Assembly: GCF_000230675.1 (NCBI RefSeq)
Contig: NZ_AGIK01000008.1
Location: 1-60,088 of the forward strand
Reading direction: 5' to 3'
DNA: 60,088 bases
Origin: Synechococcus sp. WH 8016
GTDB lineage: Bacteria > Cyanobacteriota > Cyanobacteriia > PCC-6307 > Cyanobiaceae
Under the pieces are notes generated by a model. It saw nothing but the letters and a program-made list of their open reading frames with translations. It made no database searches and was not told where the DNA came from. Shown one piece after another: positions 9,669-14,706 of the stretch (its first letter is position 1; each line of letters starts with the position of its first letter). The position numbers and the translations under genes were made by a program.

Positions 9669-10676
9669 TTGAGCGCCACGATCTCCCTGCAGCAGCTCAC
9701 TGATCAGCTCGATGCCCTCGAGGCGGCGGCGGCGGTTGAAATCCAGGCGGCCGCCGATGCCGCTGCCCTTGAGCAGCTTCGGGTGGGCCTGTTGGGCAAG
9801 AAGGGGCGGCTGTCAGCCGTGCTCGGGGCGATGGGCAAGCTGCCGGGAGAGGAACGGCCGTTGGTGGGCCAGCGCGCCAATGTGCTGAAAACATTGGTGC
9901 AGCAGCTGCTGTCTGAGCGCCTTGAGGCGGTGAACAGTGCTGCGATGGAAGCAAGAATTGCAGCGGAAACCCTGGATGTCACGGCGGCTCCGCTGGGCGT
10001 GCCGATGGGGCACCGGCATCCGTTGATCACCACCACTGAGGAGATTGTTGATCTGTTCTGCGGCCTTGGGTATCAGGTGGAGGAAGGTCCTGAGGTGGAG
10101 ACGGATCACCACAACTTCACGGCCTTGAATATTCCGCCTGAGCACCCTGCGCGAGACATGCAGGACACGTTTTATCTGCAAGACAACTTGTTGTTGCGCA
10201 CCCACACCTCGCCGGTGCAGATCCGACACCTGGAAACCAATCCACCACCGGTGCGGATCGTGGCTCCAGGCCGGGTGTATCGGCGGGATGCGGTGGATGC
10301 CACCCATTCGCCTGTGTTTCATCAGGTGGAGGTGCTGGCGATCGATGAGGGCTTGGATTTCAGCCACCTGCGCGGAACGGTGATGCAGTTCCTCAAGGCG
10401 TTCTTTGGCGACCTACCGGTGCGCTTTCGCGCCAGTTACTTCCCGTTCACAGAACCCTCTGCGGAGGTGGACGTCCAATGGCGAGGGCGTTGGTTGGAAG
10501 TGATGGGGTGCGGAATGGTTGATCCGGCCGTATTGGAGGGGTTAGGCCTGGACCCCGATCGTTGGAGCGGTTTTGCGGCCGGTTTGGGCGTGGAACGGTT
10601 CTGCATGGTGCGTCATGGCATTGACGACATCCGCCGCCTGTACACCAGTGATCTACGCTTTCTTGATCAGTTTTGA
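9669..10676 (+). CDS. pheS: Phenylalanyl-tRNA synthetase alpha subunit
   Basis: About 335 residues from the TTG at 9669 ([13 protein letters not shown]), a length close to the family norm; an ATG at 9633 would add twelve residues. N-terminal coiled-coil tRNA-binding part (to about residue 90), then the class II core: [55 protein letters not shown] (motif 2 region), [20 protein letters not shown] and the motif 3 [18 protein letters not shown]. pheT is not adjacent, as common in cyanobacteria. Followed by AT-rich DNA. Confidence 0.95.
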
Positions 10677-11065
10677 TGCAAATCATTCATTTTGTTGATC
10701 TGAAGATCACCTGTATCGGAACAAGAGATGATCTCGATACCAATTGCAGAATTTGACCAAGATTTTTAAGCTCAGTAGCTGTAAGTCTAACAATATTGAA
10801 TTTGCAATCTTGAGTGGTTGAAGGGCATAGGAAGTTGATTGAGCAATCTGAGATGCAAATGCTTTTTATGATTCAGAGGTGTTGCTGTTCCGTACTCATA
10901 AAACTGGTAGTACTGATTGCTTATGTGACGAGCATCGATGTAACTTTCTTTTACGCGTTGACCCAGGGCTTGATGAATGTTCAATCTTTGAGGTAATTGA
11001 AGATAATAGTATTTGGAAGCTTGCTTAATTGCGTAAGTATTGAGCATCGCTCAATGTTTGATTTA
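10677..11065. other. AT-rich intergenic stretch after pheS
   Basis: About 390 bases of AT-rich DNA marking the left edge of an island. An 86-codon minus-strand frame (10787-11047, ATG) begins 18 bases beyond the stop of the amidotransferase-like gene and contains YYQFYEYGTATPLNHKKH; it is the only candidate gene here, with no ribosome site or recognisable domain. A 60-codon plus-strand frame overlaps it. I leave both as unproven. A weak palindrome TGATCTGAAGATCA follows pheS at about 10697-10710. Confidence 0.35.
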
Positions 11066-12436
11066 TTACTCCATCAGGCTGTCGTGTAGTATTCGAATAA
11101 GCAATCTAATTCCATCGTCTTTTTTTAAATGATCGAATGAAGGGATGCCGCTTTCTTTGAATTCTCTAAGATCATCTCTTAATTCTGGGTGGAATTGACA
11201 TGTAAACGATCTGCGTGTCTGCCGAGTGTCGTAGTCTCTGTAGTTGATGCATGTAGCGGCAACTTCTGTGCATAGCCTCCCTTCAGCACTTGTTGAACAC
11301 AGTATCTCAATGCTGCTTGGAAGGTTGAACAGCCAATATAGTTCAGATATTACAAGCTGATTTCTAGCTGGTAGAAGTGTTTGATAGAGATTGCGATAGG
11401 CCCAATTAGCGAATAATATAGCTTCTTCGTTAACTTCATCGGTATGGAACATAACAATATTTAGGTCCTTTTCGTGAGAGATTGATTCTTCAATTACGCC
11501 ATCATATTCTTCTGCTGTTATTGCTTGAGCGGTAAGTAATTCGGCTAGTTCAAGGTCAGGATGGGGATTGGATTTTTCATAGTGAACGATTTCACAGTGA
11601 CCCGCCTCCGGAACCTCATTAATCCCTACGGCAAATTCTGAATGATCCCAGCCCTCCGCGACGATTTTGTCGTCTTTTACTATTCTAAGTTTTGCGCCTA
11701 GAGTCTGAATTCTATTGCAGACTTGCTTTAAAGCATTTCTAGAATTAGGTTGATTGATTAGGATTTCATCAATCGTCTCCATAATCTCATAAGTTGCTTT
11801 TTTGATTAACCGTATGTGTGCTTGAGCGGCAAGCTGATGCCCAAGGCATATGAATATAGAGGGAGCACTTCTAAGTCGCCTGGATAAAATAAGTTCTTCA
11901 CTTAAATAGAGGAGATCGTCATGAGAGCAATTGGTATTTTTAAATGATTTGCTGTCGCGTACTGTTGGATGTCCACCTTCAAATACAACAGCTAGAGAAG
12001 AAGTAAGAACATGAGTAAGTTTTTTTCTATCCATTAGACCTGATTTCCACAAAGGGAAAACGATTGAGTCGCAATCGGCAATTCTCTGAGCAAGCCATGC
12101 AATATTGATTGAGGCTCTCACGGGTTCGCCAATCGTGTTTAATCCAACATGATCAGCAGGTTCGACAATGCAAATGGATTGATTGAATGAAAAAGGAGTA
12201 TTGATAAGAGTATCAAGATCTTCTTGGGAAGTAATCTCTTTTTCTAATGGAGCAGAATCACCCCATCCATGTTTTATTGAATCAGATGTGTCGTTGTTAT
12301 AATGAGTTTGCAATAAGCTTGGAGAATGCCTATCTCTTAAGAATTCAGACAATAGGGTCTGAATGGATTTGAAACTTGACTTTCCAGGACGGTAAAACCC
12401 AGGAAGCACTCGCCAGGATGTTTTTTTATCCATCAT
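11066..12436 (-). CDS. Orphan glutamine-amidotransferase-like protein
   Basis: 456 residues from the first ATG (12436). Not a known full-length family to me, but it holds the hallmarks of a class I glutamine amidotransferase: a nucleophile-elbow sequence SIFICLGHQLAAQ with Cys near 197 (the usual G-x-C-x-G-H/Q, with Ile before Cys), and TCQFHPE with His near 416 and Glu near 418, which together would make the Cys-His-Glu triad. Cys and His lie about 220 residues apart, roughly twice the usual spacing, so a large insertion separates them. The N-terminal 100 residues match nothing. No signal peptide and no acceptor-domain gene beside it. Codon use is AT-rich, unlike the flanking core genes, which suggests transfer. 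Confidence 0.75.
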   Translation of the reverse strand: MMDKKTSWRVLPGFYRPGKSSFKSIQTLLSEFLRDRHSPSLLQTHYNNDTSDSIKHGWGDSAPLEKEITSQEDLDTLINTPFSFNQSICIVEPADHVGLNTIGEPVRASINIAWLAQRIADCDSIVFPLWKSGLMDRKKLTHVLTSSLAVVFEGGHPTVRDSKSFKNTNCSHDDLLYLSEELILSRRLRSAPSIFICLGHQLAAQAHIRLIKKATYEIMETIDEILINQPNSRNALKQVCNRIQTLGAKLRIVKDDKIVAEGWDHSEFAVGINEVPEAGHCEIVHYEKSNPHPDLELAELLTAQAITAEEYDGVIEESISHEKDLNIVMFHTDEVNEEAILFANWAYRNLYQTLLPARNQLVISELYWLFNLPSSIEILCSTSAEGRLCTEVAATCINYRDYDTRQTRRSFTCQFHPELRDDLREFKESGIPSFDHLKKDDGIRLLIRILHDSLME

Positions 12437-12439
12437 CAA

Positions 12440-13062
12440 GTCAGTAATTTATACGTCTAAATTCTATACCATTAGTGCATTCGCTTGCCTTGCAGAACTT
12501 GCCGCTATTCTCTTTGTATCTGTAGTTTTTGTTACATTCTTGCGAATAGGTTGGCCGAATTCGTATTGAATCAGTGAGGTTTGACCTTTTGAATTGAGGA
12601 AGATGGAGCGATTCTCTATTTTTTCTTGTTCTCACCCTTGTAATGCTTTTATGATTGTCAGGTCTTTAGTATTCATTTGGTGGCACCAGGGAAGCCGCTA
12701 ACTGTCAATAATGTGAATGTTTACAATGTATGCTAATTGGCTTGAGTCTGCATTCTGTCTAGGCTCTGGTATGGAATTTCATCTATCTCTTGTTGTTGAG
12801 ATTAAATGTGTTTAGGAGTTGGATTAAATCGGAGTTCTGGACCGAGATTGTTGAAAAGTCCGTTGATTTCAAGGTTGTGGTGGTTCAGACTTGCTTTGCC
12901 AACTAAGACTTCTCCATTGCAGGCTATGTCGATCCTTTGGGGGTATGGGGACCGCTTTTGCAAGTTTCGCTTGAGTAAAGGTCAATAGAAGTCTTCATGC
13001 CCTCTGATGACTGCTCCAGTCCACTGATGCACCCAAAACTTTTGTTGTTTACCGCTGCTTAA
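12440..13062. other. Non-coding AT-rich stretch before the UbiB gene
   Basis: About 620 bases. Short frames (12441-12635 minus, 64 codons; 12806-12988 plus, 60 codons) show random-looking composition and no start context. Base composition rises to core values just before 13063. Promoters for the minus-strand amidotransferase-like gene and the plus-strand UbiB gene must both lie here; no clear consensus elements were identified. Confidence 0.4.
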
Positions 13063-14706
13063 ATGTCAGTCCTCAGTGTGTTCGACGGTTCCTCACGAGC
13101 CTTGGAGATCGTTCGGATCGTCTCCCGCCATGAGTGGTCGTTTCTCTCTCAGCTCCTCAACCGAGGCGATGCCTCTGAAACGCGGCTGCCCCTGCCCTCG
13201 GTGCTGTGCAACATTCTTACGGAATTGGGCCCCGTTTACGTGAAGCTGGGCCAGCTATTGAGCACTCGCCCCGATCTCCTGGGGGACGACTACATTGCGG
13301 CGTTGAGCCAATTGCAGGCGGATGTTCCGGCTGTGCCCTGGGAGCAATTGAAACCCCAATTGGAGCAAGAGCTGGGCTGCTCTGTTGACGAGGCCTTCTC
13401 AACCTTCGATGAAATGCCGATTGCGGCTGGAAGTGTGGGGCAGGTGTACAGGGCGACCTTGCCGGAGCTGGGTGCCGTGGCGGTGAAGGCCTTGCGGCCC
13501 GGGATTGCGGCCCAGGTGGAAGAAGACGGTCGCTTGCTGCGCAAGATTGCCGCCCTTGCTGCAGCCACGTCTCTCGGCAGTTTGTACGACTTTGTCGGGC
13601 TTGCCGACCAGGTGCTGGAGGCCTTGGTGCGCGAGCTCGATTTCAGAATTGAGGCCTCCAACACCTTGCGGTTGCAGCGCAGTTTGGAGGAATCAAACTT
13701 TGTTCCAAACGGACAGATTCGCCTTCCTCAGGTGGTGAAGTCCTTGTCGGGCCGCAGCGTTTTGGTGCTCGAGTGGATCGAGGGCGCATCGATCCTCAGC
13801 CCTGCAGGCCGGGAGGCCCTCGAGGCTGGGCCTGGCTTGGTGGCCACCACCACGGCCCTGCTTGGGGCTTTTGTGCAGCAATACTTCGTGGATGGGTTCT
13901 TTCATGCCGATCCCCATCCCGGCAACCTCAAAGTGCTCGCCGATGGCAAGGTGATCCTGCTGGATGCGGGCATGGTGGGTCAATTTGATCCGCGCACGCG
14001 CAGCAACCTGCTGGATCTTGTCTTGGCGCTGATCAACCAGGACGGTGCCCGTGCAACTGATGTGTTGGAGCAAATTGCGCCACCGGCACGGGGGGGAAAA
14101 GTGGATCGTCAGCATTTGCAGCGCCAGCTGGATCAGCTGATTGCCCTCAGTTTTTCCAAGCCTTTGGAGGAATTGAATTTCGCCCTGTTCCTCGCTTCCT
14201 TGCTGCAGCTGGCGAATCGCTCTGGGTTAAGGGTGCCGGGAACCCTGGGCCTGTTTGTGAAGTCCGTCACCAATTTGGAAGGGGTGGGCAATTCTTTGAA
14301 CCCGGCGTTCAGTTTCACCGGGGAGATGCAGCCGTTGGTGGCCCAGCTCCTGGCCCGTGCCGTGATGCTGCCTCAAGAACGGCTGATGCAGTTTGGCCTT
14401 GATTTACGCAATCTCACGATTGATTCTCCGCGGCAGTTGAGTCAGCTGTTGCGGCGCTTTAGCAGTGATGAATTGGTGTTTGCCATTCAGCTGGAGGGGC
14501 TTGACGCCATGCGCGCCAGCTTGGACCGGATGTCGCAACGGGTGTCGTTGGCGATTCTTGTGGCATCGCTGTTGCTGAGTGCCACGGTGATGGCCACCTT
14601 GGCCCAACAACCTCTGCTGAGGGATGTCAGCGAGGGGTTATTTGTTGGGGCCACTTTGTTTGGCCTCTGGTTGATCGTGTCGTTGCTGCGCTCGAGTCGT
14701 CGATGA
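13063..14706 (+). CDS. ABC1/UbiB-family atypical protein kinase
   Basis: 547 residues. ABC1/UbiB proteins are atypical kinase/ATPases linked to quinone and isoprenoid-lipid metabolism. Visible: the family-specific KxGQ motif (YVKLGQLLSTRPDLL), an Ala-rich nucleotide loop (AAGSVGQVYRA), VAVKALRPG with the ATP-site Lys, LVRELDFRIEASN (ExD), VLEWIEG, and the catalytic FFHADPHPGNLKV followed by LLDAGMVG. Two C-terminal hydrophobic segments (LAILVASLLLSATVMATLA and LFVGATLFGLWLIVSLL) anchor it in the membrane. Cyanobacteria have several paralogues, so a gene symbol is not justified. Convergent with the next gene, six bases between the stops. Confidence 0.93.
   Translation: MSVLSVFDGSSRALEIVRIVSRHEWSFLSQLLNRGDASETRLPLPSVLCNILTELGPVYVKLGQLLSTRPDLLGDDYIAALSQLQADVPAVPWEQLKPQLEQELGCSVDEAFSTFDEMPIAAGSVGQVYRATLPELGAVAVKALRPGIAAQVEEDGRLLRKIAALAAATSLGSLYDFVGLADQVLEALVRELDFRIEASNTLRLQRSLEESNFVPNGQIRLPQVVKSLSGRSVLVLEWIEGASILSPAGREALEAGPGLVATTTALLGAFVQQYFVDGFFHADPHPGNLKVLADGKVILLDAGMVGQFDPRTRSNLLDLVLALINQDGARATDVLEQIAPPARGGKVDRQHLQRQLDQLIALSFSKPLEELNFALFLASLLQLANRSGLRVPGTLGLFVKSVTNLEGVGNSLNPAFSFTGEMQPLVAQLLARAVMLPQERLMQFGLDLRNLTIDSPRQLSQLLRRFSSDELVFAIQLEGLDAMRASLDRMSQRVSLAILVASLLLSATVMATLAQQPLLRDVSEGLFVGATLFGLWLIVSLLRSSRR

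Follow-up and report, generated by a model that had tools for sequence, protein, structure and literature searches.

What does a lone amidotransferase-like gene do in an AT-rich island of a Synechococcus genome, with no synthase nearby for it to serve? The gene lies in a 60,088-nucleotide stretch of DNA from Synechococcus sp. WH 8016 (hereafter, the window). An earlier note on this DNA had described an open reading frame with the motifs ICLGHQ and QFHPE, had read these motifs as parts of a Cys-His-Glu triad, and had offered three options: a glutaminase-like hydrolase, an enzyme of the gamma-glutamyl hydrolase type, or a new amidotransferase for a transferred pathway. Most class I amidotransferases (GATases) serve a synthase, and solitary hydrolases, where known, have about 250 residues. 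We propose that the protein works on its own as a cysteine hydrolase that cuts glutamine or a gamma-glutamyl compound, and that it has the class I GATase fold and its own substrate cap. We give this reading a probability of roughly 0.55.

Both motifs are present in the reading frame (Table 1). It is not a chance frame, because relatives can be aligned over its full length (at identities from 91% down to 41%) and because dN/dS is low: 0.057 between the window and G021, 0.065 with G014, 0.082 with G005, and 0.063 with G027, although in the comparison with G027, synonymous sites are close to saturation. (G and L numbers are our labels for genomes and loci.) The protein is under strong constraint, with purifying selection, and the genome has a single copy of the gene. 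We number residues from the TTG that opens the frame. The earlier note's gene ended at the in-frame ATG one codon later, at 12436; its Cys197, His416, and Glu418 are our Cys198, His417, and Glu419. The true start is probably the ATG at 12433, which would give a protein of 455 amino acids, because an ATG is aligned there in all six rows of an alignment of the window and five Synechococcus relatives. In four of these rows, GATAAA follows this ATG.

The protein is predicted to have a complete class I GATase fold. In the AlphaFold2 model (mean pLDDT of 91.1 and pTM of 0.93), Cys198 is at the junction of a strand (residues 194–198) and a helix (199–226), and His417 and Glu419 come after another strand (408–414). 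We compared the model to solved structures with VIA-align, and the Z scores were 16.8 for TM1158 (1o1y), 16.7 for the TrpG subunit of anthranilate synthase (1i7q_B, with 190 of 192 residues superposed at 2.5 Å), 16.6 for the GATase domain of GMP synthetase (4win), 16.0 for DnfC (8khs), and 15.9 for gamma-glutamyl peptidase 1 (9k7l). Since these scores are tied, they settle the fold and not the subfamily, and the comparison does not divide hydrolases from amidotransferase subunits. Foldseek gave weaker results, with five matches at E up to 0.001, of which a CTP synthase was the best (E = 4e-4); viral folds had no match at this threshold. Given how much of 1i7q_B superposes, and how closely, Cys198, His417, and Glu419 should converge in the folded protein. 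The first GATase strand of the model is formed by residues 88–92, so about 86 residues precede the GATase domain; the earlier note, which had put the unmatched N-terminal segment at 100 residues, was roughly right. By eye, the model has further extra mass after the elbow helix, before His332, and in a helix at residues 338–363. Together, the N-terminal segment and the insertions make the protein more than twice as large as a minimal GATase.

The residues of the putative triad are invariant across the family. Our conservation alignment has 71 full or near-full rows: the window and 70 of the 80 loci that were listed by a scan of species genomes. (The other 10 are near-duplicate, partial, or broken: L040, L045, L065, L096, L097, L102, L105, L109, L110, and L111.) Twelve positions are identical in all 71 rows: G155, G156, C198, H201, Q202, H332, E335, Q415, F416, H417, P418, and E419. 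In the window's protein, Cys198 lies in a C-x-G-x-Q-like motif (FICLGHQ), and QFHPE, which is found in all 71 rows, comes after a late core strand of the model. These results bear on both conditions that the earlier note had named as refuting its reading: the cysteine is conserved in every row, and the model, in which the three residues should be close, has the whole GATase fold. We counted 219 residues from the cysteine to the histidine, which agrees with the spacing of about 220 that had been noticed before. We take Gly155-Gly156 to be the oxyanion strand, as in other class I GATases.

Table 1. Features of the GATase-fold gene and of its surroundings. Positions are those of the window unless a locus is named; residues are counted from the TTG.
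Feature	Position	Strand	Details and basis
Solitary gene with class I GATase fold (predicted)	11066..12439	-	457 aa counted from TTG; ORF list, family alignment, and model
First GATase strand and following EPxxHVG (residues 87–99)	12143..12181	-	E93, P94, and V98 invariant; H97 in 59/71; model and alignment
Gly155-Gly156, presumed oxyanion strand	11972..11977	-	Invariant, 71/71
Codon of Cys198, putative nucleophile elbow (ICLGHQ)	11846..11848	-	Cys in 71/71; junction of strand 194–198 and helix 199–226
HxDEVNEE motif and the long helix after it (residues 326–363)	11351..11464	-	H332, E335, N337, E339, and W346 invariant; model and alignment
His417-Pro418-Glu419 of QFHPE	11183..11191	-	71/71
TGTA-N8-TACA palindrome upstream of the gene	12521..12536	none	Perfect; motif inspection
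AT-rich insert between pheS and the ABC1-kinase gene	10677..13062	none	GC profile and genome comparison
Gap between pheS and the ABC1-kinase gene	window 10677-13062; L127 4000-7224; L133 4727-7820

The window's protein scores 22.0 bits against the GATase family of Pfam (PF00117), just under the gathering cut-off of 22.8, and only residues 191–223 are matched. All 71 members match PF00117 at E up to 1 (the best at 1.9e-6). No NCBIfam cut-off was reached by the window's protein, and a search of the PDB with the family's sequence profile found no chain at E up to 1. Profile comparisons with two GATases from the same genome gave low probabilities: 11% for TrpG and 9% for GuaA. With GuaA, QFHPE aligned as expected. 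With TrpG, the elbow (ICLGHQLAAQ) aligned, and the HPE of TrpG was placed against H332 (in FHTDEVNEE) and not against H417. Both QFHPE and the order of the strands lead us to keep H417 as the putative triad histidine. H332, which like E335 is found in 71/71 rows, may, together with E335, be part of the catalytic site.

We found no synthase partner for this protein. There is none in the window, and when we grouped 93 loci into 26 sets (at 80% identity), no neighbor recurred convincingly. The commonest one was a signalling cluster, in 5, 8, and 11 of the 26 sets within one, two, and four genes; we rejected it as a recurring partner, as single linkage had merged cyclases, kinases, response regulators, and other proteins into it, from positions both close to the gene and farther away. 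The next families were found in 2, 3, and 5 of the 26 sets at these distances, and the last of these is a protein of 130 amino acids. The top neighbor family in our first tally (12 loci) was a 104-amino-acid ORF on the opposite strand and centered inside the gene itself, which we took to be a shadow frame. In G009 and G030, ATP-grasp-like (by eye) and HisC-like genes lie beside the GATase-fold gene, but ATP-grasp is also found in G006, G010, and G026, which lack the GATase-fold gene. It matched in 6 of 31 genomes (in G019, by a fragment) and is absent from the window's own genome. There was no fusion among the 93 loci, and the longest stop-to-stop frame was 502 amino acids. The description of the gene as an orphan thus holds for the window and for its homologs, and the suggestion that a transferred pathway came with its own new amidotransferase finds no support, since no pathway travels with the gene in the 93 loci. 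Nor does the gene replace a missing GATase among the standard types within reach of PF00117 (PdxT, for example, is beyond it): the genome has TrpG, CarA, GuaA, PyrG, HisH, CobQ, and PurQ. The lack of a convincing recurrent neighbor or of a fusion, and the presence of these seven GATases, are what one would expect of an enzyme that can do without a partner of its own.

We also considered that the protein might be a glutaminase subunit that works with a synthase encoded at another place in the genome, this partner being a conserved housekeeping protein. A partner acting in trans would give the same picture, the predicted fold is equally close to GATases that are coupled to a synthase (TrpG and GMP synthetase), and the elbow aligns, at low probability, with that of the genome's own TrpG. 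However, the neighborhoods, the lack of a fusion, and the seven standard GATases speak against this. Furthermore, several phyla have the gene by itself, and a dedicated partner would have to exist already in all of them. We consider this explanation rather unlikely.

Another alternative is a one-chain amidotransferase, in which ammonia from glutamine would be passed, without ATP, to an acceptor bound on the extra segments. Summed, these segments are larger than a minimal GATase, and one of them is as conserved as the end of the GATase domain: the mean frequency of the majority residue is 0.80 for residues 326–363, as compared to 0.82 for the C-terminal strands that include QFHPE (376–420) and 0.63 for the N-terminal segment. 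But the extra mass comes in several short pieces, and some of these are poorly conserved (0.50 for residues 227–250 and 0.59 for 291–325). Furthermore, no nucleotide-binding or acceptor domain was recognized; besides the GATase family, Pfam gave only weak and scattered matches. This makes a one-chain amidotransferase quite unlikely.

We return to the self-contained hydrolase, which is the simplest reading because there is no neighboring partner, no fusion, and no recognized ATP site. In class I GATases, a cysteine that is activated by a histidine and a glutamate forms a glutamyl thioester with glutamine. Similarly, we propose that Cys198, at the nucleophile elbow, would be activated by His417 and Glu419 and would attack the gamma-carbonyl of the substrate, which would be either glutamine or a gamma-glutamyl amine or peptide. 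A glutamyl thioester would form, with the oxyanion held near Gly155-Gly156, and the products would be glutamate and either ammonia or the amine. A substrate cap would be built from the protein's own extra parts (its N-terminal segment and its insertions, above all the HxDEVNEE helix, which is conserved) and would stand in for the synthase partner. On this reading, the gene acts alone, is dispensable to its hosts, and has spread by horizontal transfer. We infer, then, that a stand-alone enzyme of the glutaminase or gamma-glutamyl hydrolase type is the best fit among the three original options.

How does this protein compare to characterized ones? GATases of the TrpG/PabA type are minimal domains of about 190 amino acids that work with a synthase. 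The window's protein shares its predicted fold with these and with the GATase of GMP synthetase, and its CLGHQ aligns with TrpG and its QFHPE with GuaA (at low profile probability), but it is solitary, it has 455–457 amino acids, and its identity to them is 17–23% in the structural alignments listed. Gamma-glutamyl peptidase 1 (GGP1) from Arabidopsis and TM1158 also have the class I GATase fold, and their solved chains have no synthase domain; these chains are shorter, with 230–248 residues, and are 15% identical to the window's protein. GGP1 is reported to cleave a conjugate of glutathione in vitro (PMC3042935), and so provides an example of a GATase-fold protein with activity on a gamma-glutamyl conjugate. 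The gamma-glutamyl hydrolases PuuD and SpuA (peptidase C26) have a GATase-like fold as well. Two such structures, 6vtv and 7d50, are in the Foldseek list, but at E = 4e-3 and 6e-3, versus 4e-4 for the best match, and Peptidase_C26 (PF07722) matched just 1 of the 71 members, at E = 0.051. Finally, DnfC is a GATase-fold protein from outside of the classical pathways. DnfC is reported to be encoded in a dnfABC cluster, and glutamine to be an intermediate of the dirammox pathway (PMC11440038), whereas the window's protein has no such cluster.

The family is patchy: it occurs sporadically across the cyanobacteria and in a few other bacteria, including some records of Bacteroidota and Pseudomonadota. 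Among 197 genomes searched as relatives, 15 matched (including the window's own). A profile search of 388 cyanobacterial genomes found matches in 34, and 28 of these have an unbroken, near-full copy; the other six (G013, G157, G217, G265, G320, and G394) have only broken or partial copies. The scan of species genomes gave 94 coding loci. The 80 that were listed are mostly from cyanobacteria, and the other titles among them are Halioglobus, Parahaliea, Methylococcaceae, Gammaproteobacteria, Rhodobacteraceae, and Bacteroidetes/Flavobacteriaceae. Of 274 genomes drawn from the class of Parahaliea, none but the seed had a match. In a tree of the family, three rows from Bacteroidota and one from Rhodobacteraceae lie inside a 22-row clade with Synechococcus and Prochlorococcus (support of 100/100), which suggests that the gene was transferred between phyla. 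(The Rhodobacteraceae row is a long branch that is paired with another long branch.) Alternatively, these cross-phylum records may be due to contamination of bins or of single cells. We also noticed that one Prochlorococcus contig (CACJAC010000013.1) has two copies, L043 and L045, about 10 kb apart and on opposite strands.

The AT-rich island that had been noticed is confirmed: GC content is 0.40 at 11–13 kb, as compared to 0.52 at 10–11 kb, 0.64 at 9–10 kb, and 0.60 at 13–14 kb. We compared this locus across the 15 of 31 genus genomes (including the window's own) that match the DNA around the start of the ABC1-kinase gene. The GATase-fold gene lies between pheS and the ABC1-kinase gene in 5 of the 15 (the window, G005, G014, G021, and, in two pieces, G013). 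In eight others (G008, G009, G010, G017, G025, G026, G027, and G030), the gap between the aligned ends is just 89–158 bp. In G007, the gap holds a 180-amino-acid protein (TerB-like by eye), and in G019, it holds a 670-amino-acid protein and a 204-amino-acid membrane protein (by eye). Because the contents of the gap vary, and because three of the short-gap genomes (G009, G027, and G030) have the GATase-fold gene at another place, the gap is a cargo-swapping insertion site to which the gene is not bound. Repeats in the gene's flanks are limited to short two-copy matches, there is no tRNA in the window, and positions 10600-13100 have no Rfam match at the gathering threshold.

Some copies near or outside of this site have features of their own. 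Downstream of the window's gene, there is an 86-amino-acid ORF (10787-11047, minus strand), and a search of 16 loci found a match to it in G013 only (72% over 75 residues). The copy in G013 (L022, 8410-9779) is broken into two frames. G009 has a second, C-terminal fragment (L023, 8561-8791) about 2 kb from its intact copy, between two repeat-rich ORFs. The copy in G027 (L033, on QCUL01000007.1) is near the end of a contig whose flanking GC is 0.32 and which has few long ORFs; this genome is titled Synechococcus, and the contig may be a low-GC island or foreign.

In most hosts, the GC content of the gene follows that of its flanks (r = 0.85 over 86 rows, with some genomes counted twice), which suggests long residence there. 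The exceptions are the window's close relatives and, to a lesser degree, G009 and G090. The departure of the window's relatives from the trend fits a recent arrival of the gene in marine Synechococcus.

Could this be a mobile defense protein with a GATase-like active site, acting for instance against phage? A solitary and patchy gene, of which six of 388 genomes have only partial or broken copies, in a cargo-swapping gap, would fit this. But neither PADLOC nor PHROG gave a match, and no relative was found in phage and plasmid records or in IMG/VR (searched with two short peptide patterns). Furthermore, long residence in most hosts, as suggested by GC content, does not favor this explanation, which we regard as very unlikely. 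That the protein is a decaying former enzyme without a function, as the broken copy in G013 might hint, is hardly credible given invariant catalytic residues and dN/dS of 0.057–0.082.

We looked for clues to the gene's physiological role. The palindrome upstream of the gene is a putative NtcA-like site, judged by the consensus. It is intact in the window, G005, and G013, altered in G021 and G014, and not kept in G027. Across the genome, there are only 9 such sites, versus 18 per strand for a backward control pattern, and, by eye, none of the other 8 sites lies before nitrogen genes. Across 81 loci, the shorter pattern GTA-N8-TAC is found upstream of 12, as compared to 6.6 expected from single-base shuffles (with a maximum of 16). 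The palindrome may be an NtcA-type site, although it gains no support from the control across the genome. We also asked if the gene replaces gamma-glutamyltranspeptidase, which is absent from G000 and G021, is present as remnants in G014, and is intact in G013, whose GATase-fold gene is broken. Across 31 genomes, there was no association (Fisher p = 1.0 for absence, or p = 0.68 for absence or decay). EgtD is present in 28 of the 31 genomes and was uninformative.

The family is real and under constraint. None of the libraries that we searched gives it a curated name, and among literature records available in part, our searches found no paper naming the enlarged GATase family. Its chemistry is probably conventional. 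More tentatively, the GATase site and its own insertions might define a new kind of one-gene catalyst, either a one-chain amidotransferase or a hydrolase of a so far unrecognized gamma-glutamyl metabolite, and this catalyst would be passed as a single-gene trait between bacteria, most of them cyanobacteria; we doubt this more than we believe it. A dispersed and conserved family of proteins that are nearly twice the usual 250 or so residues, with no neighboring partner, no NCBIfam name, and no sequence-matched chain in the PDB, implies that Synechococcus and Prochlorococcus, among others, carry out a reaction on glutamine or gamma-glutamyl compounds that has yet to be assigned.
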